Origin: Bryoerythrophyllum caledonicum
Taxonomy: Eukaryota > Streptophyta > Bryopsida > Pottiales > Pottiaceae
Assembly (NCBI GenBank): GCA_963971425.1
Contig: OZ020522.1
Span: 5,988,168 to 6,052,167 of the forward strand
DNA: 64,000 nt
Direction of reading: 5' to 3'
Numbering within the stretch: the stretch's first letter is position 1; every line of letters starts with the position of its first letter. The translations under genes and the position numbers were made by a program. The notes beneath the pieces are model-generated. The model was given only the letters and a program-made list of their open reading frames with translations, was not told the DNA's origin and did no database searches. This document shows positions 24,578 through 62,111 of the stretch, piece by piece.

Positions 24578-24605
24578 AGAGTTGCAACTTTCTCATAAAT
24601 GGTGG

Positions 24606-25545
<940 letters not shown>

Positions 25546-30084: not shown

Positions 30085-30114
30085 AGATAATTCATCAGCC
30101 CTCTTTGCCCTCTT

Positions 30115-31671: not shown

Positions 31672-31674
31672 ATC

Positions 31675-32403: not shown

Positions 32404-32417
32404 TCCACGTGTGCTGT

Positions 32418-34664: not shown

Positions 34665-34679
34665 ATTGTTCCCAGGTTG

Positions 34680-35129: not shown

Positions 35130-35133
35130 AGCG

Positions 35134-35151
35134 CTCTCAGTGGAAGCACCA
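35134..35151 (-). promoter_or_regulatory. Primer-binding site, unit A
   Basis: Coding strand TGGTGCTTCCACTGAGAG starts two bases after the LTR. The TGG start fits pairing to the CCA end of a tRNA; which tRNA is not determined. Confidence 0.65.
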
Positions 35152-39030: not shown

Positions 39031-39060
39031 AGATAATTCATCAGCCCTCTTTGCCCTCTT

Positions 39061-40617: not shown

Positions 40618-40620
40618 ATC

Positions 40621-41349
40621 TCAAGGCACATGCGGCACAGTAAAAATAACCATCGGCGCAACCACACTTGATTGTACACACCCAATCTCATCTGGTGAAG
40701 AAGCAAAGGCCTTTCCATGCTTAGAGAGCATATCTTGGAACTTCTTCTTTTCTGGCTCCGTTAAGAATACATCCCCTCCAATTTTCAAATTTGCCAATGT
40801 TTCTTCTGTAAACTTGTGACCAATTGTCTTGGCCCCTCTCAAACTCGGTTCTTTCCCCGCTTGTCTGATGTGCTCATCCGTGTCAGATGGTAATTGGGTC
40901 GCCACAGGTTTGACTTTCTTAGCCACTGTTTTGTACTTGGTGTTCACCATGGCCTCATATTTCAACCCATGGTTTTGACAAACACTAGCCTTAGCCACTA
41001 CATGGCAAATCTCATCATACAATGCTCGTGTATGAATTTTGATCACAATATCAGAAGCATTGTTTTTCTCCCTACTAACTTGCAAGGTTTGTAAGACTTG
41101 CAAAACATCATCTGCAAAGCCTTGCTCCTCATAGACTCCAGAAATAGTCTCTTCATCTAAAAGTAAACTCACTCTTTTTAGATTTTTCTCTATCTTTTTC
41201 ACCATCCTTCTATGTACAGGTTCTAAATCTTCAACACATGTGAACCGCGTAAATCCATGCTCCGTAATACTTAAAAAACCACTTTCAATAGTGTGTACAG
41301 TGGAGGGTCTTGAACTTTCAGATTCTTTTGCACCCGTGGACCTCCACAT
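40621..41349 (-). CDS. Protease-RT linker region of pol, unit B
   Basis: Same 242-codon pre-RT segment as unit A. It ends at TGA two codons before the RT frame, in phase. The frame change relative to the protease frame lies near 41376. Confidence 0.75.
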   Translation of the reverse strand: MWRSTGAKESESSRPSTVHTIESGFLSITEHGFTRFTCVEDLEPVHRRMVKKIEKNLKRVSLLLDEETISGVYEEQGFADDVLQVLQTLQVSREKNNASDIVIKIHTRALYDEICHVVAKASVCQNHGLKYEAMVNTKYKTVAKKVKPVATQLPSDTDEHIRQAGKEPSLRGAKTIGHKFTEETLANLKIGGDVFLTEPEKKKFQDMLSKHGKAFASSPDEIGCVQSSVVAPMVIFTVPHVP

Positions 41350-41363
41350 TCCACGTGTGCTGT

Positions 41364-43610
41364 TTAGAAATCCGAAAAAGTATGAGAAGTAGGTAGAGGA
41401 CCATCTCTGAGCTGGACACGGTGCCTCTCATTCTCAGATTTCACTGTCAAGAATTGCACGGATCTCTTGCCATCAAGACTTCGAATTCGCGCATAGTGGG
41501 ATCCATCATCCAATACTTTAGTCTCCATTCTTGATGCTGTAATGTATGGTTGCCCCAAAATCACGGGATAAGCTCCCTGATTTTGGACAAAGAAGTTTTG
41601 CTCCACTTCCACATCACCAATCTTTGCTGACACAGCAGGACAAGCTCCAAATAGATGTGTCCGCCCACTATTGGCTGCTCTCATCACCCATCCATGGTTG
41701 GTGTCAATAGGCCATTTGCCTTTCTCGTAGACACTTCGAGACATGATATTTATCTCAGAACCATGGTCTACGAGAGCCAAAATCGGATCATCCATCCCCC
41801 CAAGCTTCACACGCGTCTCGGTGGTGGCTCTAGCCCAAAAAGGTAGAAAATAATCCGCTCTCTCTTCACCTTCTCTTTCCAAAGAATGGACTATGCCGCA
41901 TTTAAAGGTATTGGCTTCTATTATAGCCCTTCCCTCAAATGCTGCCACAATGTCCACCTTCTCCATCTTATTTTTCTTCTCTTCTAAAGGTCTTGGTGAT
42001 TTGGTTGATTTCTTCAAGCTGTTCACCCCCTCTAACTCTCCATTTACCACATGATGGCATTCCAAAATATCCTTTGATTTCGCAAAATCTTTCTTCTCAC
42101 CAATGGTGTATCCTTTGGCAATCATGTGCAAAATCTCATCCTCCTCTTCATCAGTGAGACAAAGCTCCTCTTCTTCACCACCATCATCATCTACCGCCCT
42201 TTTCTCCTTTGTCTCTAGCTCACACATCAAGGCAAATACTTGCCCAACCTCTTCCTCTTCATCTTCAGTCATGTGGGTGTCCAAAGCCTTTACCATGACT
42301 GTCTCAGTTGTCATCTGTCTCTTCCTCTTGATGACATCAATAATCAGCTCATGAAAATCTTTCTTGGCAATGCCATGAGCTTCTCTGAGCGTGAATTCAA
42401 TCTTAGCATCCAAGATTCTCTCTTCCAACACCCCCTTCATGTCAATGGAAGATTCAATATCAGATTTCAGCTTATAAGCAGGTCCCTTCCCCTTGCTTTT
42501 GTTAGAATCTTCCTTTTCTTTGCCCTTCTTGTTGCCACTTGGTTCTCCCCACACTTTCTCAGGTAGTGGTGCATCTCCTGGGTGAACAAATGAAGGTTTA
42601 GTAGGCCTTGAGCGTGTATGAACACCAGACTTTTCTTCGTTGGCAGCCTCCTTTACACCTTGAGGCCTCTTCTTCTGTGCAGGCTCTTCAACATCACCTT
42701 CATCAGCAGCTCTTCCTCTTTTTTCTTCCACAGAGGCTTCGTGTTGCTCATCATCACTTTGCACCTCACCTAAAAATGCTCTGATGCTGATAGCATCCAC
42801 TGGATCTTCCCATCCGGTTGCCTTTCTTATGGCTTGAGCTCCTCTTTTTAATGTTTCAACACATGGAGTCAATTTGGCCTTAACCGGATGATAATCCACT
42901 CCAATGGCAAATGCCTCTGCACCTTGTACATGCATGCCACTTGATCTTCCAGATTTGTCCTCCATTAGCTTCTTCATTCCTCCTTTGCCAAAATTAGTGG
43001 GTACTGGCAAGTCGGTGGCCTTATCATGGATCTTCCCATCCTTGAAGTGCACAATGCCTTCCTTAAGAGCCACATCAAGAGACTTACAACCACGAAGGTT
43101 GTGGTCGTCCTCTTCATCGCACCACAAGCACCTCCTCACAAATTTCCTCACACCATCAGATGATTGAGAAGAAGTTGATGTTCGTGACTTCTGCAGCTCG
43201 CTCATTTCCACCCTCAACTCCTTGAAACCCTTGATAAGTTCATCAAGGGCACCTCCTTCAACAATTTTTGCAGCCTTTGAAGTAGATGGCTCAGTTTTAG
43301 AGGACGCAGGAGTTTTTGAAGGCTTCTGAGCTGGAGCAACGGTTGCTTCAATTCGAGTGACCACGCCCCTAGACTTCACTCGCCGTTGTTTGGCAATAAA
43401 AGTGACAGTCTCTTCAATTCTCCTCCAGTCATTCGTGAAACCACCTTCAGTAGTTCGGTCACCCAAAAGTAGAAGCAGTCTATCTTCCAAAGCAGCATCT
43501 GCTGCTTGTAGAAACAACTCTGTCTTTCTAGTATCCAAAAGGCGTCTCTCAGCCATTGGTAGCTGGCTGTACTTCTTTTCAAAATCACGCAACAACTCAC
43601 TCGGGCCCAT
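41364..43610 (-). CDS. Gag C-terminal part, zinc knuckle and retropepsin, unit B
   Basis: 748 codons with the CCHC-like knuckle and LVDHGSEINIMS protease motif, as in unit A. One residue differs: Val in QGVKEAANEE (base 42655) where unit A has Ala. Confidence 0.85.
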   Translation of the reverse strand: MGPSELLRDFEKKYSQLPMAERRLLDTRKTELFLQAADAALEDRLLLLLGDRTTEGGFTNDWRRIEETVTFIAKQRRVKSRGVVTRIEATVAPAQKPSKTPASSKTEPSTSKAAKIVEGGALDELIKGFKELRVEMSELQKSRTSTSSQSSDGVRKFVRRCLWCDEEDDHNLRGCKSLDVALKEGIVHFKDGKIHDKATDLPVPTNFGKGGMKKLMEDKSGRSSGMHVQGAEAFAIGVDYHPVKAKLTPCVETLKRGAQAIRKATGWEDPVDAISIRAFLGEVQSDDEQHEASVEEKRGRAADEGDVEEPAQKKRPQGVKEAANEEKSGVHTRSRPTKPSFVHPGDAPLPEKVWGEPSGNKKGKEKEDSNKSKGKGPAYKLKSDIESSIDMKGVLEERILDAKIEFTLREAHGIAKKDFHELIIDVIKRKRQMTTETVMVKALDTHMTEDEEEEVGQVFALMCELETKEKRAVDDDGGEEEELCLTDEEEDEILHMIAKGYTIGEKKDFAKSKDILECHHVVNGELEGVNSLKKSTKSPRPLEEKKNKMEKVDIVAAFEGRAIIEANTFKCGIVHSLEREGEERADYFLPFWARATTETRVKLGGMDDPILALVDHGSEINIMSRSVYEKGKWPIDTNHGWVMRAANSGRTHLFGACPAVSAKIGDVEVEQNFFVQNQGAYPVILGQPYITASRMETKVLDDGSHYARIRSLDGKRSVQFLTVKSENERHRVQLRDGPLPTSHTFSDF

Positions 43611-43625
43611 ATTGTTCCCAGGTTG

Positions 43626-44075
43626 CTACTCCACCCAATCCAAAAAAGACCTCTTGGTTATCCTCTTTGAATCTTCATCAAAGTATTCATCTCGCAATCT
43701 TTCTTCAAAGATTGTCCAAGATGTCACAGCCTCATCTTCAATTATCTCGCGTATTCGTTCTCGAATCTCAGGTTCCACAGCCAAGCCAAAGATCTCAACC
43801 ATGCGATTCTCTGGCACTTGATGTACCTCCATCTCGCAAAGATACACCCACAGGAAGCTTGTGATGTTCTTCCCATCAAACCTTCCAAATTTGTCCACAA
43901 TTCCTTTCAGAGCCTTCGTGGAACTCTGACCACCAATCGGCTGTGCTCTCTGTTGCTCTATAAGCATCGCCAGAGCTCCAAGAAGCCTCTCCATATTTGG
44001 TTGGGCTCCACCGGAACCATCGCCGGTAGCGCCTCCAGAATCACCCATTGTCCTCAACAAAGCTAGCAGCCCCAA
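43626..44075 (-). CDS. Gag N-terminal part, unit B
   Basis: 149 codons, identical to unit A. It ends at the same TAG, with the next frame beginning in phase five codons on. It is the first internal ORF after the 5' LTR of the whole array. Confidence 0.8.
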   Translation of the reverse strand: MGLLALLRTMGDSGGATGDGSGGAQPNMERLLGALAMLIEQQRAQPIGGQSSTKALKGIVDKFGRFDGKNITSFLWVYLCEMEVHQVPENRMVEIFGLAVEPEIRERIREIIEDEAVTSWTIFEERLRDEYFDEDSKRITKRSFLDWVE

Positions 44076-44079
44076 AGCG

Positions 44080-44097
44080 CTCTCAGTGGAAGCACCA
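44080..44097 (-). promoter_or_regulatory. Primer-binding site, unit B
   Basis: TGGTGCTTCCACTGAGAG on the coding strand, two bases after the 5' LTR. Confidence 0.65.
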
Positions 44098-45702
44098 AAT
44101 GTCGTATAGAGAGAGTTTGCTTTGGGAAATCACGGGGATTCTGGCTGCTGCTAGTATGATTTGAAAACAAAGGTTGTCTTTCAGTAAAACGCCGATTCTT
44201 GAACGTCGAGTCTTCTTCAACCTTCTTCAAACTGGTCCACGTTGGCCTATCCTGTGGTGGTTCTAAAGGGTTAAAGGTAAGGGTAGGTGATAAGAAACCA
44301 CGGCCTCGGACGGGTAAAACGGGACGGCCAAACCACGAGCTGACCGTCCGAAAGATTGGCTCCTAAACTTCAAACCCACGGTGACCAGCAATCGCGCCTC
44401 ACCGGTGGGAACAACATAAACACGACCGTGTGGGCCATTAACCCCACTTTGCCGCAACAAAGTTTACGAAGCAGAATTGAAAAACAACTAGCCTCCAAAA
44501 CCGGCTGGGAATAACAAATAAAGACAACGAGCCTCCAAAGCCGGCTAGGAATAACAAAGCCACAAGCCACAACACGCGAGTCTTCTAGTCTTCTTATCTT
44601 CAAGTCTTCATGTCTTCTTATCTTCAAGTCTTGAAGTGTTCAAAAACACAAAAGACCTCCCAAAGTTCTTTTCCACACTAGCTGCGAGCTTCCGATCGAT
44701 GCCACAAATGATTTGAGCCGCCAAATGTCAAGTGCTATAGCTTTTTGGAAAGCTGGTGCAATAAGCTAATACCCTCCAAAATCTCAGGTTATTCTAAACT
44801 ACCTTCTAAAAGTTATGGAGGTTCAAAGTTTGTGCCTTCTTATGTCGATGGCAGCAAACCCTCTCCAACTTCGGCGGCTATAACTTCTATACTACAATTC
44901 TAAATGAGCCGTATAATAGCTTTATAGAAAGCTAGTTTAATAAGCTACAACTCCTCTAAATTTCACTTCAAACTAATCTACTCACTAAAAGTTGTGTAAG
45001 CTTAAAACTCACGCCTCCCTACTTCCAAGACGGCAGAACTCTCCTCTACTTAGATGGCTATAACTTTTTCATAGCGCATCTAAATGAGTCGAATGATAAC
45101 TTCTTAGAAAGCTAATACAATGAGGTATGCTTCTCTCAAATTTCAAGTCCAAACACAAAGTATCGAAGCTGTGGTGAAGGCCCGAAGTTGCTGCTCCTCT
45201 AATTGGGTAGCGGCCAACTACTCCTCACTCAATCTCTCATAACTTTTGCGTATAAACTCCAAATTGAACAAAAACACTGCTCAAAGAAGCGCAACTTTAC
45301 AAGGAACAACTCCACAAATTTTCATAACATTTTCTTGAAAAACGAATACACACCGCCTGATCTCCTTCTCGGGAATTTTCTCACAGCACTCTCTACACAC
45401 CAAAAACACACACTACGAAAAGAGAGTCGCCCCCCCTTATCCTTCCACATCAGCCCATGCCAAAGCCACATGGGCATCTAAAGCCTATTGGTTAACCTCC
45501 TAAAACACTCTAAAGTCTACCAAGATAAGATAGGAAAGAAACCTCAACCATTGGGCTTCAAAAGGTGTGGTTCTAAAAGAATTCCAAGACGGTCAAACTT
45601 TTTCTTAGTTTCTTTTCTTTTTCTTTCTTGAATCTTGATCTAATATAAACATAAACACACAACAAACTCCTCTATTAACAACTAAATGGATCCTACCTTC
45701 AT

Positions 45703-46202: not shown

Positions 46203-46721
46203 TCTCTCAGTAACTTCTTTAAGAAGCTTGCCTTTACTGAATTACTCTAATAGCCATAAATAATTCTATTTTAACTAAAAGTAGTCCGCATCAAAGATCT
46301 GGCTAAAGGACAAGGTCGCATCATTGTACAGTCCCTCAACAGTTGTATAAAGCTGCCTTGAGTCCACTAATGGTCACCAAGTTGCGGACTTGGTTGGCTG
46401 TCAAGGTCCGTTGATTGTTGCTTGCCGGTTCCGGGTTCGAGTTATATCGAACTCGTTGAACGGCCTGGATAGTTGCAACTTGGTACTTGCTAGTGAAAGC
46501 AGGAAATAAGCAGCCAACCGGCCACCTACGCTTCCCTGAGCTTCAGTGACAAGATGCAGGCTTCCAAGTTACGTTAACAAGCTCCGGTTATCCCCGCATT
46601 GAACCAAACCGTGGATTTCTCCACGACCCCAACCTTTTGTACCCTTCTCCTCATACTCTATCTGATGTCTAAGGCAACTTCTTTAATATTTTTACACAAC
46701 ATATGAATTTACAACGGGACA

Positions 46722-46725
46722 ACGC
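46722..46725. repeat. Target-site duplication, right of the LTR array
   Basis: ACGC, matching 26204-26207. Confidence 0.5.
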
Positions 46726-47446
46726 CTACACACCCCGCCCCGACACCCGCCCACATTCCCCCTCCACCCTGTAACCACGACAATCTGGACAATAGCAACA
46801 CATATATAACTTCATGGAACGCCTCAACGTTAAACACTGCTTTACCAAGCATTCATAATCTAACCACCCACACCAACACACCACCTGCGATAATTGCCAT
46901 ACAAGAAACCAAACTAACAGCTACTAAATCCACAAAATACATCCAAAAAGCATTCCCCGATTATAAACTCATATTTAATAACACTCATTCTCTCACACGA
47001 TGCATCCAACAACGAAGGCCATATACACCGGCAAGAGGAGGTCTACTCATGCTCATACACCAAACATATGCCTTCCCCGGAAATATTACTAAAATCCCTA
47101 CCCCGGCTAATATATCACCATATTTGCAAATTATTGAAATTTCTAACCGACCCCTCCAACCATGGCTCATTCTTCATCTATATTTGCCCTCACATATAGA
47201 GGACTCTAGGATTATTCCGGTAATCCAAAACTCTATCACCTCACAAATAAATACACACACTAACCATACAATAATACTCTGTGGAGACTTCAATCGAGAC
47301 ATTGCCCTTATTGGACGGCAAAACGGAGAGGTTTTTACCCCCCCACTTGACAGAGACTATCAATGGCAAAATAATACGAATAACCTAGAATTATATTTAA
47401 TTCCAACCGATACACAATACTCTCGCCAAGGTGGACTTAATTACAC

Positions 47447-47457
47447 ACACACTAGCC
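47447..47457. repeat. MULE target-site duplication, left copy
   Basis: ACACACTAGCC, identical to 61881-61891. Its length of 9-11 bp fits Mutator-like elements. Confidence 0.9.
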
Positions 47458-47463
47458 AGGATT

Positions 47464-47506
47464 GCTATCTTGTGAGCGGCGAGCGGCGAGCGGCGAGCGG
47501 TGAGCA
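47464..47506 (+). repeat. MULE left terminal inverted repeat
   Basis: 43 bp starting GCTATCTTGTGAGCGG and built from GCGGCGAGC repeats; 39 of 43 positions match the reverse complement of 61831-61873. The first 6 bp of the element (47458-47463) do not match the other end. Confidence 0.9.
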
Positions 47507-48241
47507 CTGATTTTTTGCAATTTATTTGGTACTGTTTTTTGAAGAATTTGGAAAGGGTCGCCTATGGCCGTGGGTTCTATTAAAACTGTGTTGACATATG
47601 AAAAAAAAACTGAAATTTTCGACGACAATGTACTTGGACGTATGGAAGTATGAGTTTTTTAGGATTGATTGCAACAATTCTCACCTCATTGGAAGGGACG
47701 CTTATGGGTGAGGATTTAGATTTCAGGGTACCGCGACAAGTCAATAGAATATGAAATACAGCAGAAAAAATTGAAGTAATATTGTTTAGGGTGGCAGGCA
47801 GTATCCATGTGATACTTAGTTCATACCCTTATAATACCTTGGTGATATCCATGAAATACCTAGGTGGAAAAAAATAGATACCATGGAGATACCCGTTGGG
47901 TCCGAACCACTCTAAATTGAAACAATCTAATTCTTAGCGAACGGTTGTTTAAAAAAGAGCAATGCCTAAGATACAAAGCCTATAAACTTAGAGGACATGT
48001 AACCAAGTTACAAAGGTTTTTTTTATTATGAATCAAGTTTTAAATCGTAGATAGAACGATATCTTTTAATATCGAAGCATGCCGTACGATGTTTTACGTA
48101 AGACATACGTGAAAAGAAAGGGATTTTGACAGGAATGAAGATGATTCACGATGGGACAATATTGAAGACAACCAGCTGGTAGTGTGATGGTAAACAAAGC
48201 AATAAACCAATGCAATGGAATCAAGATTCCTCCGCGAAAAG
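47507..48241. other. Subterminal non-coding sequence of the MULE
   Basis: No gene. It contains ATACC(T/A)-rich words (GATACTTAG, AATACCTTGGTGATATCC, AATACCTAGGTGG at 47810-47865). A related word, AATACCTAGGTGATTCC, occurs near the other end at about 61430, so subterminal sequence is partly shared. Confidence 0.4.
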
Positions 48242-51200
48242 TCAGCTGGAATCACTATCGTCAGAAAAACTATCACTACGCTCTGAGCCACTAACGTAAG
48301 CCTCCCCATCTATGAACGGACATGTAGTAACTCTACGTGAGACTACCGTTTGAAGACGTGGAGGGGAATGTTGTGCAGCCATGGCGTCTGCAACCTGGGC
48401 ATCCCAGGGATTCAAATGGAATCGTCGTGTGGGGCTCTTCACCTCCAATAATAATGGAGACAGCACTCCAACATGAGTCCTTGACAATGATGCCATCAAC
48501 GATGAAGGCCGACTGCACAAATTAAAGTCTCGTTAAGAATTTAAGCTTGAGACAAGCTAGAACTAAAACCGCATTCCAAAACTAGAACCGAATCAGGGTA
48601 GGACTTACTCACAACGTCTCTTGGCGACGGTCTTCACCTCTGGCTCGTCGTCATCAACCTCCAAGGGGCGCTTGCGAGAGCCCTCTGCCACCACCGGTGG
48701 CGGTGCTGACTCGACCTCAACAATGTTCGGGACCAAAGGAAGAAGGACTTCATCCACCAACTCTCGGTCCTCCTCCAGTGCCAAAATGTGCCGCTTTAGC
48801 GCCTTGCAGGCTTTAATAGACGCCCCTTCATTCAAAAAAACAAATCATACGATGTTAGCTATGATACGAAGGTAAAACTAAAGAATTTTGTAATGGAATG
48901 AACTAACCTGTAGATGCTGTGAGATCCAAGACAATGTCCTCGTGCTGTGTGCAGAGATCAATCAGAGCCTCCATGAGGTTCGTAGACTTTTCGCGAGCAC
49001 CACGCCATGGTACGTCGCTATCGGCCCTCATAGTCAACGTCTCATGAGTAATGAGATTGGTCATGTGACCATCTGAAGACAGATGAATCTCGTCTCTTTG
49101 CAGCTCCATCCTATCAAAGAATGAGAAAGGAACCGCGGGATCCAGTTTCCTCACGAAGCACTTCACAAGAAAGCACTTGTGAGTGCGCCCAGGGTGGCCA
49201 TCGCAGAAAAGTGGTAGCCCGTTGATGGCAAACCACTTTGTCTCCTCGACAAATCCTGCCCAATCGGCCCAGGCTGAAAGTTCATTGGAGATGAACTTCG
49301 AATCCGGGTAGAACACGATAAGCGGCGCCCCGTCACGAAGCAACGCCCCAACTATCTCAAATGCCCGGTAAATCCAATGGGATTCTTTCTTCCCTCCGTC
49401 TGATAATCGGGTTGGAAGCTTGTTCCAATTTGGTACGTCGATGCCGCCATCAATGTCGGGGACCGGTAAATCCTCTGGTACGTCCAAGAGTACCATATCC
49501 GCCAAACCTAGAGCACAATCCAGATCCTCATGTCGCCGATGCCGTGAGCCCGAGTGCTCCTTCAAAAACTTGCGAAGCTCCTTCCAGGCCTCTGGTTCAT
49601 CATCCTCCACAACGACGCTGTCAAATTGAGACATAATGGAGAGGGCACTCTCACACATCACCTTCACAGCAGCAGAAGACTGAGGAAGATCAAATAATGG
49701 TATCGAATACACCGTCTGAGAGGGCTTCACATCAAAGGTAGAAGGTCGGCTGCTAGCTGAGGGTGAAACGCCCATCGTCAAAGTCACCACAGGAGGGACA
49801 GCGAATCCCCCCAATCCCCCCAATTGAGTAAACAGCTTCTGGGGACCTTCCTTCGCCACCAACGCCACAAACTCCTTGTACCTCTCCTTCGTCTCTTTCT
49901 TCTCCTTCTTCGAACTCTCCTTCTCCAGCCTTGCAGCCTCCCTCTCTTGTTCCTTGATTACTGCCTTAGCGGCTTTCTCGGCAGCCTTGGCTTTGGCCTT
50001 CTCGGATTGCTCCTCAGACGCTGCCAACGGAGCCGCCAACAAGGGAAGGACGCTGCCAACCACAGGAGGCACCGCCATGGACTCGCATGCCACTCGAAGC
50101 TGGACCTCATCTCCAGGTGTGGGATCCACCTCACGCATCTCCAAGTACCACGGGCATTGGAGGAGGTGGTGAACAGAGAACCGACGCCTCTGTGAATCTG
50201 TGAAGATACACTCTGGTGCAGAAGTATCTATCCACTTTGTGAAACGGGTGGGTAGATCTCCGGGCAACAAGGATCCCTGTGCCACGAGCACCCTCCAAAA
50301 ATATCGCATCACAGCTCGCTTCAGAGCCTTCTCGCATCCGTCTTGCGCCATAAACTCCTCGCCCTTCGTGTAGGAGCCCCCCTTGCCGATGAGAGTACAG
50401 AACACCTTTGTCCACAACGTCATGCTCTTTGCCTCAATCCATTTCCCAATGGCAGGAACGGGATTTGGAAGCCCGGCAGTCTGGAGGACAATGTTGTCCT
50501 CAAGAAGAATCTTTGCGTAGAGTTTCTCAGACTCTTCTTCTAGCTGTGAAACGAAATCCACATAGTTAAGAATTGATGATAAAGATAACATTCGGAAATA
50601 ATGAGAATATCAAAAAAAATTAAACATTACCCCAGCCCAGAACGCTGCCTTGTCAATCCAGCCTCGAAGAACCTTGTCAGACGCAGGCGATGCGGGGAAA
50701 TACTCCATCCTACTGCCCTTGCTCATGTTCCACCACTTGCACCAGCGCGTCTTGAACTTCGCAGCTACCCTAGCTGTAGCGATGAGCTGGAGTTTTTCGG
50801 GAGTCATCTCGGGCCGCACCTGATAAACATCATAGTGCCGATTCACCTATACTCCAATATCAATAATTAGAGTGGACTCTACAAGGTCAGAAGTTAAAAA
50901 TCCGATATCGATAGGAATGGAGTATATACATATACCCTACCTCCTTGAAGAAATCCTCCCCGTTTGCCGGGTTGGCAATTGCCAACAACCGAGTGAGCAT
51001 GGTCTGACAAGTCGTCTTCTTCTTTTGTACAGCCTCAGTGCAGCGGCTCACCAACTCTGCAGCACTTCCACGCCGATCCTCACTGACACCCGTGACCAAG
51101 GTATCCTTAAACTTTTGGATCTGCACCTCTTGAACAGCAATCAAGTCCCGCTGTGGACAACATAAGGTCGTGATCAGTATCAATATTCTGAACTAGAATA

Positions 51201-52170
51201 TTGAAGGGAGAGTAATGGCAAGAGCTACATGTTCATCATAATCATAACGTACCTCAAACATGAGCTTCACAAATGCTTCGAGAGTCATATGATACCACTT
51301 TCGTTGTCCCTTCTTTGACCACTCAAGGACACTCAGTTCGTAATCATCATCGCTGATGAGCCCCTTTAATTGCTCAAACTCTAAGAGCCCGAAATGCTGA
51401 ACACGCTTTAGATCGTGAGTGAGGTGTTGCACAACGTGGTCTGATTCTTTTTGCCTTCGACAAAAGAGAATTTCAATGTCAAAAAATGAAGTACAATGGT
51501 GAAAGCAGCTGAAACAAACGAATGCCAGGAGTATCTAAGTTCGTGCGCACCTGTTCAAGTCGGTCATCACGTTGAGCAAGATGTGTCGGTTCTCGATAGT
51601 TGGCTCAATCACCACGGCTCTAACGGGCACATGAAAGCTGACATCGGATGGGTGCAGTTGGGATATCACCTCTGACCAAGCCATATGGCGATGATTGCCA
51701 TCCCACACGAAGAAGAATTTCTCTGAAAACGCCGAGTACTCCGGTCGAGTCTTCAACAGCTCCTCGAACTTCCGGTCCTCTTCAATCCAAAGCTCTGACC
51801 ATGATGACCTGTCTACTGGTTGCACCCGCTTCTCGACAAGGGAGAAACTCCTCACCGACACATAAAAACAAGCAGAACCAGGCCGATACCCATTGACGAA
51901 CTCCCCCTTCAACTTCTCGACATCACTTCTAAGAGGTAACCTCACCTCAGTCATGGGCACCATTCGGCAGAGAGGAATTGGGAGATCACCACCGAAAGAG
52001 CAAATGCTGCTCTGTAGGATGTCGTATGAGGTCCCACGGATGGACCTCCGCAAAGATTGAAGTGTTGGAGCCAGCCCATGCTCATCAACAAGTTCACCAA
52101 CGCGTTCTTCGTCCTCTAGAATCTCAAGATCCTCACGCGAAGAAGAAGCTGTGGGTCCCAAACTCTCAAC
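48242..52170 (-). CDS. ParB-like / amino-DNA-methyltransferase fusion protein, main seven exons
   Basis: Exons inferred from GT/AG sites and phase: 52170-51551, 51454-51253, 51150-50941, 50846-50631, 50543-48908, 48825-48609, 48512-48242; together 1,124 codons including the stop. Exon 1 ends in a ParB/sulfiredoxin-like region: RLPLRSDVEKLKGEFVNGY and the signature VWDGNHRHMAW, then VPVRAVVIEP. A helical middle and a Lys/Glu/Ala coiled coil follow. The C-terminal half has the order of beta-class N4/N6 DNA methyltransferases: MVLLDVPEDL (motif IV position), VGALLRDGAPLIVFYPD, HKCFLVKCFVRK, GAREKSTNLMEALIDLC, and, formed only by splicing exons 5 and 6, VLDLTASTGASIKACKAL then HILALEEDRELVDEV (SAM-binding motif I). 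The motif IV tetrad is DVPE, not D/N/S-PP-Y/F/W, so activity is uncertain. An in-frame ATG at 52212 offers an alternative start. Confidence 0.75.
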
Positions 52171-52585
52171 CTGCAATAAGTATGCATAAGAAATCCAAGC
52201 AACAAACTGCATCCACCTATCACATATACTTGAAATGAATCTAGATATATATCTAGACCAGACCAGTCAACTTAATTCTACCGCATGAATTGCTACTTGT
52301 ATGGCAAACCATGGTCATGAAATAGCTCGGTACGAAACGAACCAATGACCCATCCACACCCCAGCCTAGACCTCACCATCCATCCCACACCCACTCCCCA
52401 CCCCGCCTACACACCCTAGCCTCCCACCCACAATCCGCACTCTCACTCTCACGACAAGCTGCACGTTCCCAGCTCATAGTTCTGTATCATCGACGCAAGA
52501 ATTATCGAATCCATGAACATAAGAATGATCTCATGTTCGTGACCATCAAAGGATAGAATGATATGCACGCGCGTCAACGACTTTA

Positions 52586-52713
52586 GCCAGCAGGGATAGG
52601 ACTCTTGAATTTTTACGAAAATCAGTGACCCCTGAAAATGGCTTTCAGATCCGAAAGCCATTTTCAGGGGTCACTGATTTTCGTAAAAATTCAAGATTCC
52701 CTCCCCTGCTGGC
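52586..52713. repeat. Palindrome 1
   Basis: 64-nt arms, no loop, centre CAGATCCG (one mismatch). Both arms carry CTTG/CAAG where most other units have CATG, so the change is paired. Pairing continues imperfectly outwards to the CGCGCG words. Confidence 0.9.
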
Positions 52714-53106
52714 TAAGGTCCATCGCGCGCGCACGAGCAACGACGAATCTAGCATAAATGCATGCACACAAGGCAGAGCTCAATACAGTCTCTTACCTCT
52801 ACCCCCCCCGGCCTTGAGATCAACAACACTCAAAGACTAGAGAATGTTTTCCCTGGACCACCCCTCACACACTCCCACGTCGAGCCCCACCCACACATCC
52901 CAGCCTCGCACCCACACTCCCCACCCTTCCCTCACTCACTCATCACCCTCCCACCTACTCTCCTCACCCTCACTCCCTCTCCTGTATGCATGATATGAGC
53001 TTATAGACCTCGAAGACTGATGCAATAATTTCGGAATCCATGAAACCGATCCTGTGATCGTGATCACCACAAGAATGAAAGATATCCATGCGAGTCAAAG
53101 ACCTTA

Positions 53107-53234
53107 GCCAGCAGGGATAGGATTCTCAAATTTTTACGAAAATCAATGACCCCTGAAAATGGCTTTCGGATCCGAAAGCCATTTTCAGGGGTCACTGATT
53201 TTCGTAAAAATTCATGATTCCCTCCCCTGCTGGC
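53107..53234. repeat. Palindrome 2
   Basis: 64-nt arms centred on CGGATCCG; arms share GACCCCTGAAAATGGCTTTC. Pairing extends to ACCTTAGCC/GGCTAAGGT outside. The outer left arm has several unpaired differences (GATAGGATTCTC). Confidence 0.9.
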
Positions 53235-53626
53235 TAAGGTCCATCGCGCGCGCACGAGCAACGACAAGATTACCATTCATGCACGCACACGAGGCAGAGC
53301 TCAATACAGTATCTTACCCCAACCCCCCGGCCTTGAGATCAACATCACTCCTAGACTAGAGAATATTTTCCCTCGACCACCCCTCGCACACTCCCACGTC
53401 GAGCCCCACCCACACAATCCCAGCCTCGCACCCACACTCCCCACCCTTCCCTCACTCACTCATCACCCTCCCACCTACTCTCCTCACCCTCACTCCCTCT
53501 CCTGTATGCATGATATGAGCATATAGACCTCGATCACCGATGCAATAATCTCCAAATCCATGAACACGATCCTATGAACGTGACCATCAAAGGATTGAAT
53601 GATATGCACGCGCGTCGACGACTTTA

Positions 53627-53754
53627 GCCAGCAGGGGAGGGAATCATGAATTTTAACAAAAATCAGTGACCCCTGAAAATGGCTTTCGGATCCGAAAGCC
53701 ATTTTCAGGGGTCACTGATTTTTGTTAAAATTCATGATTCCCTCGCCTGCTGGC
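53627..53754. repeat. Palindrome 3, with paired arm changes
   Basis: 64-nt arms, almost perfect. Left arm has TTTTAACAAAAATC and right arm GATTTTTGTTAAAA, where the other units have TTTTTACGAAAATC and GATTTTCGTAAAAA. Both substitutions are matched on the opposite arm. Confidence 0.92.
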
Positions 53755-54152
53755 TAAGGTCCATCGCGCGCGCACGAGCAACGACAAAACTAGCATGAAT
53801 GCATGCACACGAGGCAGAGCTCAATGCAGTCTCTTATCCCTACCCCCCCCGGCCTTGAGATCAACAGCACTCACAGACTATAAAATGTTTTCCCTGGACC
53901 ACCCCTCGCACACTCCCACGTCGAGCCTTACCCAGACTTCCCAGCCTCGCACCCACACTCTCCACCCTTCCCTCACCCTATCATCACCCTCCCACCCACT
54001 CTCCCCACCTTCACTCGCTCTCCAATATGCATGAAACGAGCTCATTGACATAGACCTAGATCACCGACGCATGAATTTCTCAATCCATGAACACAATCTC
54101 ATAATCGTGACCATCACAGGAAGAATAATATGCACGTGCGTCGAAGACCACA

Positions 54153-54280
54153 GCCAGCAGGCATAGGAATCTCAAATTTTTACGAAAATCAGTGACCCTC
54201 GAAAATGGCTTTCGGATCCGAAAGCCACTTTCAGGGGTCACTGATTTTCGTATAAAACCATGATTCCCTCCCCTGCTGGC
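54153..54280. repeat. Palindrome 4
   Basis: 64-nt arms centred on CGGATCCG with more mismatches than the others (GACCCTCG, CCACTTTCAGG, CGTATAAAACC). Confidence 0.88.
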
Positions 54281-54673
54281 TAAGGTCCATCGCGCGCGCA
54301 CGAGCAACAACAAGACTAGCATACATGCATGCACACGAGGCAGAGCTCAAAACAGTATCATACCCCTACCCCCCTCAGCCATGACATCAACAACACTCAC
54401 AGACTAGAGAAAATATTCACTGGACCACCCCTCGTACACTCTCACGTCGAGCCTTACCCACACTTCCCAGCCTCGCACCAATACACCCCACCCATTCCTC
54501 ACCCACTCATCAACCTCCCATCCACTCTCCCCACCCTTACTCCCTCTCCAGAATGCATGAAATCAGCTCATTCCCCTGGATCACCGACGCAAGAATTACC
54601 AAATCCATGAATACGATCTTATGATCGTGACCACCACAGGAATGAAAGATAAGCACGAACGTCGAAGACCTTG

Positions 54674-54801
54674 GCCAGCAGGGGAGGGAATCATGAATTT
54701 TTACGAAAATCAGTGACCCCTGAAAATGGCTTTCGGATCCGAAAGCCATTTTCGGGGGTCACTGATTTTCGTAAAAATTCATAATTCCCTCCCCTGCTGG
54801 C
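54674..54801. repeat. Palindrome 5
   Basis: 64-nt arms, near perfect; single differences at TTTTCGGGGG and TTCATAATTCC in the right arm. Confidence 0.9.
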
Positions 54802-55192
54802 TAAGGTCCATCGCGCGCGCACGAGCAACGACAAGATTACCATTCATGCACGCACACGAGGCAGAGCTCAATACAGTATCTTACTCCAACCCCCCCGGCC
54901 TTGAGATCAACAACAAGGTCAGACTAGAGAATATTTTCCCTCGACCACCCCTCGCACACTCACACGTCGAGCCCCACCCACACATCCCAGCCTCGCACCC
55001 ACACTCCCCACCCCACCCTCACCCACCCATCACCCTCCCACCCACTCACCCCACTCTCACTTCCTCTCAGTATGCATGATTTGAGCTCATAGACTGGGTT
55101 CACCGACGCATGAATTACCGAACTCATGAACACGATCTTATGATCGTCACCACCACAGGAATGAAAGATAATCACGCGCGTCGATGAACTTA

Positions 55193-55319
55193 GCCAGCAG
55201 GGGCAGGAATCTCAAAATGTTACGAAAATCAGTGACCCCTGAAAATGGCTTTCGGATCCGAAAGCCATTTCTGGGGTCACTGATTCTCGTTACATATCAT
55301 GATTCCCTCCCCTGCTGGC
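55193..55319. repeat. Palindrome 6, most decayed
   Basis: The right arm is shortened (CCATTTCTGGGG) and both outer arms differ (ATGTTACG versus CGTTACATATC). It is the last unit before sequence diverges. Confidence 0.85.
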
Positions 55320-55644
55320 TAAGGTCCATCGCGCGCGCACTCTTGACAGCAAGACTAACATCCTTTCTTGCGCTCAAGGCAGAGCTGGAAACGAATTCAA
55401 CCCCGTACCCCCACAGCCAAGACCTCAACGAAACACACAGTCTTTGGAATTTATTCGCTGGACCTCACAACGCACACTCTCACGTCGCGCCCATCCTGCA
55501 CTTCCCATCCTCTGACCGACACTCTCTCTTCGTGCCCGTGCAACACCACAGGAAAAGCGCACCAAAACCCTAACGAATTCTCCCAGATCAACCAAATTAC
55601 AAGGAATGGCAAATACGGAACACGGAGATGTGAAGAAGACGTAC

Positions 55645-56803
55645 TTGAAGTCCTGCCATTTTCTCCAGCTCCGAATCTGCTGCCACCAAACTCCGCCGCT
55701 TACTCCCCGCGCACGCAACCTGCAAGGACAGAGATTTTCACTACATTCAGCAACTCCGCCATGAAGACTAACAAAATTTCAGTGAACATCTCCCGAGAAG
55801 CAGGTGTGAAAACATGAGAAGTTCTCGAATGCTTGAAGAACCGAACCCGGATGAAGAAGGAGATCTTGAACCCTGCTCGAGGTTGCAACGTGAGCCGTCT
55901 GCAGATGAGTGACTACCGACCGATGAGACGAACCAACGGGCCCCACATTAATCCTAAACCCTAATTATCGGAGGCAGTATGGCCTTTTTGGGAGCCCAAT
56001 ATCGAATATGTAAGGTTCTGAAACCAAATATGTGACGTATGTCATTAATGCACTGATTCTCGGGAGCTCTATAACAGGTCGGTAGCTCATTGACTAAACT
56101 GAACCACGACGATAAGAGTCACTCGTGGTCTTAGAACAAGTACAAGAACGGGAACTGATTGATCGAAAATTTATCTAATTGTGACATACCTGATTTAGTG
56201 GGTCCCTTTGAAGTTCCAACAATTTGTCCGCGAGGTCCTCAACGCTTCTTCGATGAGACGTTACTCCTTTGCCGGATGCCTTTGATGAGGAACCGTCTCC
56301 GACCAGTGTGGGTCGTGATTGATTTCTCAGCCTCCCGTTTTCTTCGCTTGAGTCACTATTTTGGCAGTCAGAATGGCCTTCACTGTCTTCAGAACCTTTA
56401 TCCACTTGTAACGAGGTCTCACTGGTACTAGATCTTTGATACATTTTCCTGGAGTTTCCTTCTACAGTGTTTGCCTCTTCAAAATGCTCATGAATACTTA
56501 CGATTGTGCAAGACTCCTGATTATCAATACAGGATGCAAGAATCGGATGAACCATTGGACTCTCTTCTATTCAGCCACATAAAATGATCTAAATATATTG
56601 AATATTTAAACATACCTAAATCTGTGATTGGACTGGCTGCGGTCCCTGGTGGATACTTGACAAAGCCCGAAAACGTTCGCCCGATTCCGATGTATCGACT
56701 TCCAGGTTCTGAGCAGCCAACAATGACTGTTGTCTGCGCCGATCCTTTCGAGCCCGCGTCTGCTTCGGATTGGAGAAATTGGTACTTCGCTTCTTCCGGC
56801 CAC
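55645..56803 (-). CDS. Probable N-terminal exons of the ParB-methyltransferase gene
   Basis: Three candidate exons on the minus strand: 56803-56616 (acceptor AAGATAG, donor TTTAG|GTATGT), 56566-56190 (acceptor CTGAATAG, donor AATCAG|GTATGTC) and 55719-55645 (acceptor CCTTGCAG, donor TTCAA|GTACGTC). Phases match each other and exon 52170. The products read TTVIVGCSEPG and YIGIGRTFSGFVKYPPGTAA, then a Ser/Glu-rich stretch, then GSKRRSLVAADSELEKM. No domain is recognised and the initiator exon was not found. An alternative is a short ORF starting ATG at 56819 in another frame. Confidence 0.45.
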
Positions 56804-57494
56804 CTATCTTAGTCATCATCTACAAGATAGCCAAACCACTCATCCGCACTCTCTTTTAACATCCGAGCCTCCCTATGCATCCAAACAACTCAGTGCAATA
56901 CTCCTGCGTTGCGGTGATAGAGCCCCTCTTCTACTCAATCTTGCTTCCGTTTACACCAAAGATCTACTATTTAATATTAAACTCTTCTCAGATCTAGTTT
57001 GTTACACGCTATCGCAAAGCCCTACAATAGCTCTCCAATATAATCCGCTGATCCATCCGTCAATTACGGGGCACAATTATTGTTAAGCATCTTCATGTTT
57101 GGAAATATACGATCCGGAAAATCTAAAGTTGTATTCATTATGTAACTACAACAAGACAATTAACAAAATTGGTAATCGGTATTCCAGCTCACTCCTTTCT
57201 TAATCCAATTTAATCTGGAAGATAAACTAGTGTCATTGTACACTCAAGCCACCAACAGGCTAGAATGGAAGCACTCTCTATAGATTTAAGTATTTCTGCC
57301 GTAATTTCACTCATTCGTAATTTATAGATTTCCACGTATGTTGCTATATATAAGAAAATATATTCTCTCCGTAATCAATTCTTTACCATTTCAGTACTTG
57401 AACAAGCACAGCAAGCTAGTTCTTACTCTCTTTCGCAATTCAGTTGTCATTGCATCCCACCCTCCTTTAACACCGCCTCTGATAGTCGTTGTGC
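56804..57494. promoter_or_regulatory. Divergent intergenic region of the MULE
   Basis: Separates the minus-strand ParB-methyltransferase gene from the plus-strand transposase and has no long frame. It probably holds both promoters. The first exon of the minus-strand gene may also lie here. Confidence 0.45.
57345..57353 (+). promoter_or_regulatory. TATA box candidate for the transposase gene
   Basis: TATATATAA about 140 bp upstream of the transposase ATG; AT-rich surroundings make it only a candidate. Confidence 0.4.
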
Positions 57495-60400
57495 ATGGCG
57501 TCTCTTACTTCTCATCAAGGCGGTGCTCCACTTGTCGTGCCCATTGGCGACAATGGCACAGTCAGTATCTCCGAGTCAATGCTATGTGTTCGTTTTGGTT
57601 ATCGGGCTGGCACAGTCCACATTGAACAAGAGGTCTATGATAGCAAAGGTATTCATGAGCAGTCCATTTATCAAGTGAAAGACAGTGACATTGGAGGATT
57701 TTTTTGGAGCTTGTGTCGTGGTTCATTCAAAGTATTTGGTATTACAGATGTTCAATTCGCCGCTCATGCGTCCGTAGCCGTCATGACTCCTCCGACCGAT
57801 TCTGGTGATACCGTACTCGTGCCCGGTTTAGGCACTAGGTCTAACCCAAGCGTCCATGTCCTTAGCGATACAGAGGAAGATGAACTATCTGATGTGAACC
57901 TTGCAGAGTCAAAGATCCCATGGACCTCAGCTCATGAATTAGGTACTCGTATTAATACTAAACTGGTTCCATCATATGCTCAAGCGTCTCCGTCTTATTC
58001 CTCAGGTAAGCCCCCCGTTTATCCTGGCTCGCGCAACGTCAGGAGCATACTAATTCATGTACGGCATACCTGTAATAGGAAAGGGTCCAGGTCTGAGTTG
58101 TCTAGAATTGATATCGATAGTTTCGATTTGAAACATGTTAAGTATTTGCCTCCAAAGTATGATGGGGACGTGGTATTTGAACTTCCACCGCTCCCAGAGG
58201 GTATTCCTACACAGTACGGAGGGGGCCTAGATGGAATGAGTAAACAGCACGATGGTCACACGTGGTGCAAGACAATGACTACAAATATCAAGAACGATTT
58301 TGGTCTGACGTATCGAAAATCTATATGTACGGGGCATCTACAGTGCCCTAACATCAGTTGTGATTATCAGTCACGAAACGGTGGGCGCTCAAATCAGACC
58401 AAGTGGAGCGGGTTCGCGTTCACTCCATTTTCAGTGAAGGGAGCACCATCCGAGAAATCTACGCTCTCATGTAAGGTTTGCCAAACCCCTCCAATTTGTC
58501 TTGCTCTTTGTGATGCACGTATATACTACGTGACATCTATCGATCACGATCGGACGCGCGCTGCAATTCATTTAGGTCATCATCTTCATCCTATCTCGAA
58601 AGGTGTAGATCAAAATGCCATGGACGTCATGCACGATTGCGTAGCAAAAGAAGTCCAACGTACGCCCAAGGCTACTAATTCTGCAATTGTCATGGCCGCG
58701 AGCAAGAATTTCCTCTCCGACTACCTGATCCGTCCACAGTCTAACTTGCCCAACCTTGAAGAAGCATCTTTGGATGCTGTCCTCGATCAATTCGAGACCC
58801 TTTCGTCTCCGAATATAAGGAATCTAGTGTCCACGTGCAAGAGGTTCTACAGTGGTGGGAAGGGTGTAATGGACAACATCATGGAGCTGAAAGAGTCGTC
58901 GAAATTCGTGTTCATTCACGAAAACAAGTTTCCCAGCCAGTCTCAAGGTAAAGTATTCCTTTTCAAAATGTCTGTCGACCAATGTGGAAGTGGGGTAGAC
59001 CTCGTTAGGCATATGCAACCCGGAAATGACCTTGAAGATTGTTGGTTGATGTTTGATCATGTCAAACGGGTCAAGGATTGGACTACCATGGCATGTCATG
59101 TGTACGACAGCAAGTATTGTAAGGAAATGACAATCGCCATGTGCGATATGCAATCCGAGGATGCTCAAGCACAGCAGTTGTTTTGGGAGAATCTAAATGA
59201 TACAATGAGACAACATGGCCTAGAAGATGTGAACTTCAAAGGCTTCATGGCTGACAGTGCTGGTGCGAATTGGCATGCCGTTCGACGAGTTTATGGCAGC
59301 GGCGACAAGGACAAGCCCATGGATAATAGGGAACGAACATGCTTATTCCATTGGACAAAGTGTCTTCAGCGTGCTACCTCTAGAAGTATTCTTCCAGGCT
59401 TCCAAGAGCAACACATTGCCCTATGCAAAATCTGGAAAAATGCGAAGACCCATGACGAGGCTGAAGCTCAGTACAACGTCATTCGAGCGTGGTGGTTGTC
59501 TTCTGGTGCCACTACCGAAATCGGACGTCGTTCTCTCGAGGATTGGATGGCATTTTGGCACTTCCGTTATCGACAATGGGGCGGCGCAATGCAGCTTGTA
59601 AGTGTATTTCAGGCTTTATATTGTTGACATTCCAATAGATTCTTCAGTGTTATCAGCTCCTATTCATTGAAAAATGTTGCTTTTCCTCAGGATCTCACGC
59701 TTGACGAGAGGGCTGACATGCCTTCCTGTAACCTTGCCGAAACAGTCCACAATCGTTGGCTCCAACAATCCGGAAATACAATGACGTGTCTATACGCAGC
59801 AACCGTAGACGACCTCATCCGTGCTTTTATGCAGATTACTTCGTATCGAGCATGGTTGAAGGGCGGTGCGTCGGGAAAAGGTCCGGACAAAGGTACGCTT
59901 CGGTTGCGTTCCGCACAACGTTTGGGTGATCCTAAACTCATAGCTGATGCTGTTAGGAACTTCCCCGGAGCTGAGGACTTACTAACTAGGACATGCGGCT
60001 TAGAAGGTGCGGAGGTTTTTGGATCCACGAAGCGCAAGCTTGACATGCCACCCGGGTCGTCCCACGATTCGCACAGGTCCGATACGGTGAACTATTCAAT
60101 TCCCCGTGATGGTAAAAGGGTGACTCGGGCTCGCATCGAAGACGCCCTTGGAGGACAGGACTCTGGTGTCCAACATACAACCTCCGTTCTCGAATCAGAC
60201 TGTGATCCGTCTAAGTGGCACATTGCTCGGCTCCCCAAAAAGTCAGCTCGAAAATGCCAAGCATTGCAGGCTGACAGTGGTGAGCCTTGCAACACCAAAG
60301 TTTCACATGGAAGTCATGGAACTCCTGCCCCCACCTATTCGGGTATGAAGAAGGATTACAGATCACCCCGTAATGTTACTGCGGAGTTCTGGTTTTGTCC

Positions 60401-61058
60401 AGATGATGTAGGCCGCTGTGTAAAGGGGTCGAAGAAAGCGTTTGTGATGGATTGGCCATCAGTTCCAATATCGTGGCCTGTGAAACTTGGCACCAATTTG
60501 ACTGTGCATGAGGTTTTAGCATTGGAGGAAGCAGGTTTCCAATTGCAACAGCGTGGGGCTCTTTCACCACGACGACAATTCCAAGTGTCTATGGACATGC
60601 CGCTTCCGCGATCTCACTTCCCCATTCCAGCAAATCCGAATTCTCACCACAGCTTTCGGAATGGCTACGCAATTCGTAGGACAACAGATGCTCCCACAAT
60701 TGACCAACGCAACAAGTGGTCAAGCGCAGCTCTTATGAATAACTGCTACGTCTCGAATCTGTTAGCCATACCGTATCCGGAATGGGGATGCGTTCTCACT
60801 CTTGACACGGGGAAGGACAAGTCTTATTGCGTCACGTTTACAGACCTCCCAGGATGTTCATGTCCAGATTTTTTGAAGATGCAATCCGAAGCGTTGGGAA
60901 AGAAGGGGCAATGGAAGTATTGCAAGCATGTGTATTACGTCTTACGTTATCTATGTAAGATGGATTACAAAGAGGACCTGTTCATGCATGCTCCAAGCTA
61001 CAGCTTTAACGAAGTTATGCGCATTCTCGAGCTTGCTAACATCACTAAACGAGCGTGA
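57495..61058 (+). CDS. MULE transposase with SWIM zinc finger
   Basis: Two exons, 57495-59597 and 59692-61058, with a 94-nt intron (GTAAGTG...TTTTCCTCAG) joining MQL|DLTLDERAD. The ATG at 57495 (MASLTSHQGG) is the first in frame. The N-terminal part has a Cys-rich DNA-binding-like region (YRKSICTGHLQCPNISCDYQ; SCKVCQTPPICLALC). The DDE-type core fits the MULE pattern: CWLMFDHVKR (first Asp), AMCDMQSEDAQAQQLFWENL, GFMADSAGANWHAVRRVYG (second Asp), then CLFHWTKCLQR. The C-terminal SWIM finger is CSCPDF ... YCKHVYYVLRYL (C-x-C...C-x-H). The frame is uninterrupted, so the element could be recently active. Confidence 0.88.
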
Positions 61059-61830
61059 GGAAGGCGTCGCAACCAGAATTATTAATATCTCTTGAATGCT
61101 CAAGAGGTCGTCATCTATACATCCTCGGTCTGTACCTGATTACATGACTGTAGCTGATGGTCATGAATTAGTTTAATATGTTATTATATTCCGTTATATT
61201 ATTCTGAGCAGTAGAATCCTGTACTTAGCGTGTTCTATGGTTTAAGGTGACGATTTTATACATAAGTCATCAGAAATCGCCTATGCCAATATTCTGGGAA
61301 TTGTCCTGGCGATTTGTGCGAATGATATGCATGGAAGGCAAAGGTGACTTTCGTGCATTTCGTAGTAAACATTTTCCCTCTCATGTAATTCGAATTTGGT
61401 ACCAATTTAATACCAGTGAAATATCCACTTAATACCTAGGTGATTCCCGTTGATTCTGAAGATCAATATTATTATAAATTAGCAAGTACGGTCAAAAATT
61501 GTCCGCTTCGTGTGATATTCTACCACAATGCGTAAACCCTATACCTAAGTAAATATGTGCTTTTCATTCCAATATGGCACTTTACAAATTGTAGGAGCTT
61601 CATGGGAAAAAATTATGACACACCTTTCAACTAAAACAGGGGACTCTAAAAAACCGAAATAAAGAAAAAAACATGCAATTTCGCAGTACACCACGGCTAT
61701 AGGGTAGTTTCTAAAATTAGAAATTTATGGAAAATATGTCACCAAAATGGGATGATCTGCTGAAAAAATCACTAATTTCACTTTTTCCCCAAAAAAATGA
61801 CCAAAAAAATCCAGATTTCAGGATTTTTTA
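61059..61830. other. Non-coding right subterminal region of the MULE
   Basis: 3' flank of the transposase gene, AT-rich, no exon seen. The stretch 61590-61830 is rich in A-runs before the right TIR. Confidence 0.45.
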
Positions 61831-61873
61831 TGCTCACCGCTCACCGCTCGCTGCTCATCGCTCACAAGATAGC
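61831..61873 (-). repeat. MULE right terminal inverted repeat
   Basis: Ends CGCTCACAAGATAGC; reverse complement of the left TIR with four mismatches in 43. Confidence 0.9.
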
Positions 61874-61880
61874 GTCGCTG

Positions 61881-61891
61881 ACACACTAGCC
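61881..61891. repeat. MULE target-site duplication, right copy
   Basis: ACACACTAGCC, identical to 47447-47457; it encodes THTS of the LINE endonuclease. Confidence 0.9.
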
Positions 61892-62111
61892 TAATCGATG
61901 GATTCTACATTAAAACACCTAACCATACCCGATATACATCTACTACCAACACCACAACCAACTTAAACTCAGACCACTTCCCAATCCAACTTAATATACC
62001 TCACAACACCCTAATAAGTAGACCTCCCACAACCATCAACTCAAATGATATTAAAATATTAAACCCCATCCCAAAAGTAAACCTTGACAACTTTAATACA
62101 ATATTCTTTGA
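61892..62111 (+). pseudogene. LINE third segment: end of APE endonuclease
   Basis: Continues the endonuclease as LIDGFYIKTPNHT and NLNSDHFPIQLNIP; the SDH motif is the catalytic His region. After VNLDNFNTIFFEKTHY the frame hits TAA, and the RT continues in another frame, so one small indel lies near 62105-62125. Confidence 0.8.

Follow-up and report, generated by a model that had tools for sequence, protein, structure and literature searches.

A ParB-methyltransferase-like gene and a conserved palindrome array in a putatively Mutator-like transposon of the moss Bryoerythrophyllum caledonicum

Computational analysis of a 64,000-nucleotide stretch of the Bryoerythrophyllum caledonicum genome (assembly GCA_963971425.1, contig OZ020522.1, positions 5,988,168 to 6,052,167; hereafter the window) revealed a transposon of 14,424 bp that carries a transposase gene and, in divergent orientation, an intron-containing gene for a protein combining a ParB-like domain with an amino-methyltransferase fold (Table 1). 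Both ends of the element are formed by inverted repeats that contain GAGCGGY-like heptamers in tandem, and a perfect 10-bp target-site duplication, ACACACTAGC, is present on both flanks. The host sequence is a long interspersed nuclear element (LINE; 46557-47456 and 61891-64000), whose endonuclease frame is broken by the transposon. Excision of the transposon in silico joins the flanks to an open LINE endonuclease frame again (...THTSLIDGFYIK...NSDHFPIQL...). Based on the inverted repeats, the 10-bp duplication and the frame restored at the empty site, the ParB-methyltransferase gene and the transposase belong to one mobile element. The LINE itself looks damaged, since the reverse transcriptase is encoded in a different frame and follows stop codons. 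Target-site duplications of 9-10 bp were found in 7 of 11 loci, including the window; for the remaining four, no duplication was found, and traces of the inverted repeats are present. Two copies, C12_8.7 and C2_32.7, are 98-99% identical to each other in all four protein parts compared, and their left ends read GAGCGACGCTATC, not CAG....

The two spliced transposase exons yield an open frame of 1156 amino acids that lies within the same element according to its borders and the empty site; the transposase gene next to the ParB-methyltransferase gene is open, in line with the original prediction, which was made from the letters of the window. The element had also been named a Mutator-like element (MULE). 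Hallmarks of this group are target-site duplications of 8-11 bp, inverted repeats and a CxC..CxH motif. The 10-bp duplication, the inverted repeats and a CxC..CxH motif in the second exon, which we take to be a SWIM motif and which matched no profile, fit this name; however, the MULE and SWIM models of Pfam and NCBIfam gave no match to either transposase open reading frame.

Seven minus-strand exons (52170 to 48242; here named a to g) splice into a protein of 1123 amino acids. With this exon chain spliced and the element borders defined, the predicted fusion of a ParB-like and an amino-methyltransferase part, encoded with introns inside a transposon, is confirmed. Motif I of the methyltransferase part is formed at the junction of exons e and f, and the intron that splits it is present in relatives, too. 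In all 11 loci compared, exons c, d and e are bordered by AG/GT splice sites. The acceptor of exon b is kept in 11/11 and its donor in 9/11, while exon f retains its acceptor in 9/11 and its donor in 11/11. Exon a, which encodes the ParB-like domain, was considered as the first coding exon and ruled out because 13 of 16 other elements share an upstream exon that starts with MTK... (five of six in the smaller set and eight of ten in the larger set). For one of the three elements without a match to it, C12_23.4, only 6 kb upstream are covered. The window copy of this first exon has a stop as the last codon before the donor, where six other copies aligned there have a sense codon. Intact copies of the first exon therefore exist, and the window copy may be damaged or may start in exon 2.

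The window belongs to a genome of 437 Mb on 894 contigs. The methyltransferase part (query P0001) gave at least 76 matching rows (4274 candidates, 69 scored), and transposase exon 1 at least 65 (3223 candidates, 64 scored places including the window). Besides the window, at least 20 copies of transposase exon 1 share 98-99% identity, 13 of them without a stop. The two genes were found together from either side: ten further loci picked by their methyltransferase match all contain a divergent transposase (one as a fragment), nine of them with the ParB exon, and eight of nine stretches picked by a transposase match contain ParB-methyltransferase exons (a tenth pick extended past its contig and is left out). 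The same holds for six of six sampled among the closest transposase copies (98.3-98.9% nucleotide identity). The gene is thus present in many copies of the element. Exon e contains one stop each in 2 of 11 loci, transposase exon 1 one each in 2 of 10, and transposase exon 2 one to three in 3 of 11.

The ParB-methyltransferase gene is under purifying selection. Exon a has a median ratio of nonsynonymous to synonymous divergence (dN/dS) of 0.10 over the 18 of its 45 pairs in which dS is usable, and exon e one of 0.16 over 37 of its 55 pairs; corresponding medians for the transposase are 0.08 (29 of 45 usable pairs) and 0.07 (30 of 55).

Comparison with structural models assigns exon a to the ParB-N/sulfiredoxin (ParB/Srx) fold. 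Its DGNHR motif contains an arginine that is conserved in 35 of 39 alignment rows by manual count and that we take to be the pocket arginine of the ParB/Srx superfamily, with a role presumed to be the same. For other ParB/Srx members, a role of the conserved pocket arginine is stated in the accessible part of PMC5512222. Searches of the ParB exon and its relatives against Pfam, NCBIfam and PHROGs gave nothing convincing, that is, a weak phrog ParB match (P0047, E 0.044) and two weak DndB matches (best E 0.087). Sequence searches of solved structures with both alignments returned no ParB or methyltransferase chain; the best match was a ribosomal protein (E 0.00094), which was taken for chance. 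No relative turned up in two scans of viral_contigs.

The C-terminal part was modeled as a beta-class amino-methyltransferase fold (Pfam N6_N4_Mtase group), and the fold matches include METTL3-METTL14 entries. In beta-class enzymes, motif IV precedes motifs X and I, with motif I near the C terminus, and motif IV usually reads [DNS]PP[YFW]. The motif order of the protein agrees with this class, as DVPE starts where model strand 337-343 ends and both the motif X region and TASTG are located C-terminal to it. Motif IV itself is different: among 19 alignment rows, 18 cover it, with D[VI]PE in 17 and DVHE in one, and the second proline and the aromatic residue are absent in all 18. Its Asp and Glu are retained in 11 of 11 genomic loci. 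The beta-class call therefore stands for fold and motif order, but not for the catalytic motif, which is D[VI]PE and not DPPY. Likewise, the ParB and methyltransferase folds of the proposed captured base-modification system are predicted to be present, while active methylation is doubtful because of the altered motif IV.

The long intron upstream of exon a harbors an array of six tandem units, each with a long palindrome centered on TCGGATCCGA. This core occurs exactly at 53166, 53686, 54212, 54733 and 55252, and with one mismatch at 52645. The palindrome parts are 0.91-0.95 alike between the units, compared with 0.65-0.80 elsewhere in them. Other elements carry arrays at the equivalent position, with unit lengths of about 117, 126, 139, 221, 242, 244, 274, 402 or 441 bp or with irregular spacing; C9_16.8 has about two 520-bp units. 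A plain satellite was ruled out, as the core recurs in unlike units.

We ranked all 10-mers in the interval from the transposase start to exon a of 11 elements. TCGGATCCGA ranked first, with at least two copies in 10/11 elements and at least one in 11/11; the second-ranked 10-mer reached two or more copies in 7/11. Six elements added after the ranking have 2-14 sites each; for three of these, the interval begins at the end of the stretch covered. Overall, 93 exact sites were counted in 69,688 bp of interval from 17 of 17 elements, two or more of them in 16 of 17, compared with 0.05 expected (first-order Markov model; 100 runs, maximum 1). No site was found outside the interval in 173,733 bp of 11 20-kb loci. 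The genome-wide search yielded 402 pairs of TCGGATCCGA spaced 205-234 nucleotides apart, and 0 with the reversed-pattern control.

The bases flanking the core differ between 11 array types, into which the 17 elements were grouped by eye, yet they remain paired within a site. At flank position 1, pairing is 0.99 within a site versus 0.49 across types, and at position 4 it is 0.94 versus 0.38. Pairing fades beyond about 5 bases on each side of the core, and beyond ten bases the flanks of the 11 types agree at only 0.27-0.39. Dyad symmetry is thus maintained by paired changes. The array core includes GATC and GGATCC.

Furthermore, we analyzed whether the array follows the accessory gene or the transposase. 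Among the 27 array clusters listed, 13 precede one of the 64 methyltransferase places by 2.1-5.7 kb on its upstream side (expected coincidence per cluster, 0.003), and with a limit of 15 kb these gene-linked clusters are always on the 5' side. In the reverse direction, a listed array lies no more than 8 kb away for 12 of the 16 methyltransferase places on contigs C1-C4. The element C10_3.0 separates the two genes: its transposase is 42-47% identical to that of the window, but its exons e (66%) and a (75%) are the closest to the window among the ten first loci. The trees disagree accordingly: C10_3.0 groups with the window in the exon e tree (99/98), whereas in that of transposase exon 2 it sits outside on a long branch. 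Since C10_3.0 combines a distant transposase with a close accessory gene and six exact TCGGATCCGA palindromes, gene and array seem, in this one case, to have traveled jointly between transposase lineages, and an exchange of the accessory module is possible.

We favor, with a probability of roughly 0.55, the interpretation that a selected accessory protein binds the dyad array in its own element and forms a ParB-type complex there. A Mutator-like cut-and-paste family would retain, under selection, a gene whose predicted product begins with a Lys/Arg-rich N terminus, continues with a ParB/Srx-fold domain and ends in a beta-class methyltransferase fold, the catalytic motif of which is altered. 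We infer that a dimer of this protein would bind sites with dyad symmetry and a length of about 18 bp, approximating GWCYYTCGGATCCGARRGWC. The candidate sites are those in the long intron of the protein's own gene, after the shared upstream region and before the ParB exon. On the element DNA, the bound protein could form a ParB-type complex, for which the ParB-type domain and the analogy with parS clusters suggest nucleotide-gated clamping or clustering. Such a complex might control expression of the two genes, or else shield the element from silencing. As for the methyltransferase fold, its main task may be SAM (S-adenosylmethionine) or base sensing and DNA gripping, or it may be an enzyme with unusual chemistry at GATC/GGATCC. 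A broader version, in which the protein and its TCGGATCCGA clusters move as a ParB/parS-like module between transposase lineages and a self-recognizing complex serves to mark, insulate or regulate the element although the usual catalytic motif is lacking, is put forward tentatively, at somewhat less than even odds.

The main rival is active methylation at GATC/GGATCC, by which the protein would mark adenine or cytosine on its element and so protect or advertise it. The absence of the second proline and the aromatic residue from D[VI]PE (DVHE in one row) in 18/18 rows argues against such self-marking, given the roles that we presume for these residues, and makes it unlikely in our view. It is favored by the beta-class fold with motif I and the correct motif order, by GATC and GGATCC inside the array core, and by the proposal, in the part of PMC12477816 available, that an Ectocarpus relative binds and modifies its own transposon. 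Slightly less probable still is an array that serves the transposase or a host factor and is unconnected to the ParB-methyltransferase protein. Lying between the start of the transposase gene and the ParB exon, the array could regulate either gene, but the palindrome is central, with 0 sites outside the interval and thus none in the inverted repeats, and it is kept in C10_3.0 despite the distant transposase of that element.

The paired arm changes and the near-perfect long palindromes in the window units could also reflect hairpins, either as hairpin RNA from the intron that feeds or blocks small-RNA pathways or as cruciforms. This appears improbable, as the center is loopless and the most constant part, pairing is short-ranged, no palindrome with arms of at least 16 pairs was present in 8 of 11 loci scanned, and Rfam gave no match at gathering scores in 47400-62000. 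Finally, the gene might be passive cargo without benefit to the transposon and the array a satellite-like product of slippage. Related copies do differ in array size (about two units in C9_16.8, six in the window), but the low median dN/dS of the gene (0.10-0.16) and the identical dyad in 11 array types with otherwise dissimilar flanks leave this hardly credible.

Several observations weigh against the favored binding of the array by the accessory protein. The transposase or a host factor could be the binder instead, and the link of the array to the gene and not to the transposase comes from a single element, C10_3.0. Fourteen of the 27 listed array clusters have none of the 64 methyltransferase places nearby; these could be unscored gene copies or arrays without a gene. 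The broken element C14_16.6, which has no ParB exon match and whose interval extends to exon e, contains one TCGGATCCGA site only. Besides the 93 exact sites, there are 17 with one mismatch (1.5 expected for up to one mismatch). The core was picked after the first loci had been seen, so that its identity of 1.00 is by construction, and units within one element are not independent, which is why the elements were grouped into array types. With regard to selection, dS is near saturation in most pairs, and the closest pair, C2_32.7/C12_8.7, has a dN/dS of 0.78 for exon a and 0.34 for exon e, with very few changes.

Elsewhere in the window, two adjoining sets of Ty3-type retroelement open reading frames of equal lengths were found (28873-35183 and 37819-44129), the first with matches to integrase, reverse transcriptase, RNase H and DUF4100. 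The region 24001-26000 is strongly skewed (GC skew, -0.60; AT skew, 0.56), with several frames open.

Table 1. Features of the transposon and its accessory gene in the window
Feature	Positions	Strand	Remarks
Whole transposon, 14,424 bp, within LINE endonuclease part	47457..61880	.	Inverted repeats, duplication, rejoined LINE frame
Left target-site duplication, ACACACTAGC	47447..47456	+	Same as right copy
Right target-site duplication, ACACACTAGC	61881..61890	+	Same as left copy
Left terminal inverted repeat, CAG....GCTATCTTGTGAGCG and GAGCGGY heptamers	47457..47506	+	
Right terminal inverted repeat	61831..61880	-	
Transposase exon 1	57495..59597	+	Spliced frame; divergent from ParB-methyltransferase gene
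Transposase exon 2, with SWIM-like CxC..CxH at 60855-60929	59691..61058	+	Spliced frame
First exon, Lys/Arg-rich N terminus (MTKIGGRKKR...)	56616..56816	-	41-97% identity matches in 13/16 other elements
Probable second exon, counted from its ATG; upstream border uncertain	56190..56555	-	88% identical in C9_16.8; weak in four others
Probable third exon (...MAGLQ)	55645..55719	-	84% identical, C9_16.8 only
Array, six tandem units of 518-526 bp, long intron before exon a	52223..55347	.	
Exon a: ParB/sulfiredoxin-fold domain (predicted), DGNHR at 51688-51702	51551..52170	-	
Exon b	51253..51454	-	Splice sites retained in most other copies
Exon c	50941..51150	-	
Exon d	50631..50846	-	
Exon e: linker and methyltransferase fold (predicted)	48908..50543	-	
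Within exon e: motif IV, DVPE	49473-49484	-	
Within exon e: motif X region	48945-49007	-	
Within exon e: motif I, first part	48909-48929	-	
Exon f: remainder of motif I (G|ASIKACKAL)	48609..48825	-	
Exon g, carries stop codon	48242..48512	-	

METTL14-type proteins have a methyltransferase fold with an altered catalytic motif. The protein described here resembles them in that the fold is kept and the catalytic motif altered, but differs in that its motifs follow the beta-class order, which places motif I close to the C terminus. If the proposed reading is true, this kept but altered motif would argue for such proteins as readers or grips and not as modifiers. Fusions of a ParB domain with an adenine methylase are known from bacteria, e.g., Bce_0392 of Bacillus cereus, as described in the accessible part of PMC5512222; compared with these by description, the eukaryotic proteins are set apart by a long linker, by several introns and by D[VI]PE where the usual catalytic motif would stand. 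Eukaryotic retrotransposons with captured cytosine methyltransferases (PMC5890265, seen in part) are likewise transposons carrying a methyltransferase gene, but they encode C5-cytosine enzymes, whereas the present element is a DNA transposon with a ParB/amino-methyltransferase fold.

Transposon-borne ParB-methyltransferases as a kind are not new. According to the available part of PMC12477816, the Ectocarpus transposon Sola1-1_Ec32 carries a ParB-like N4/N6 methyltransferase accessory gene opposite its transposase, and green and red algal relatives are cited there. Among the titles and abstract openings listed from the open-licence PubMed Central (PMC) literature, there was no other eukaryotic ParB-methyltransferase. 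By description, the arrangement of the two genes is alike in Ectocarpus and in the window, but the former is a Sola1 element and the latter has 10-bp duplications; neither a palindrome array nor an altered motif IV is mentioned in the part of PMC12477816 available. New here is the conserved, arrayed palindrome TCGGATCCGA in the long intron of the gene, a candidate target of the protein. As the same part of that source names no target for such proteins, the array offers a concrete candidate that is testable in vitro. In parABS partition systems, ParB binds its sites with a CTP switch and has ParA as a partner. They offer a further parallel, as, from the accessible parts of PMC5450999 and PMC8494293, they likewise join a ParB-type fold with clustered short palindromes on the same replicon. 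The pair described here differs from them in residing in a eukaryotic transposon; if the favored interpretation is true, it would constitute a parS-like cis/trans pair acting on a eukaryotic selfish element.

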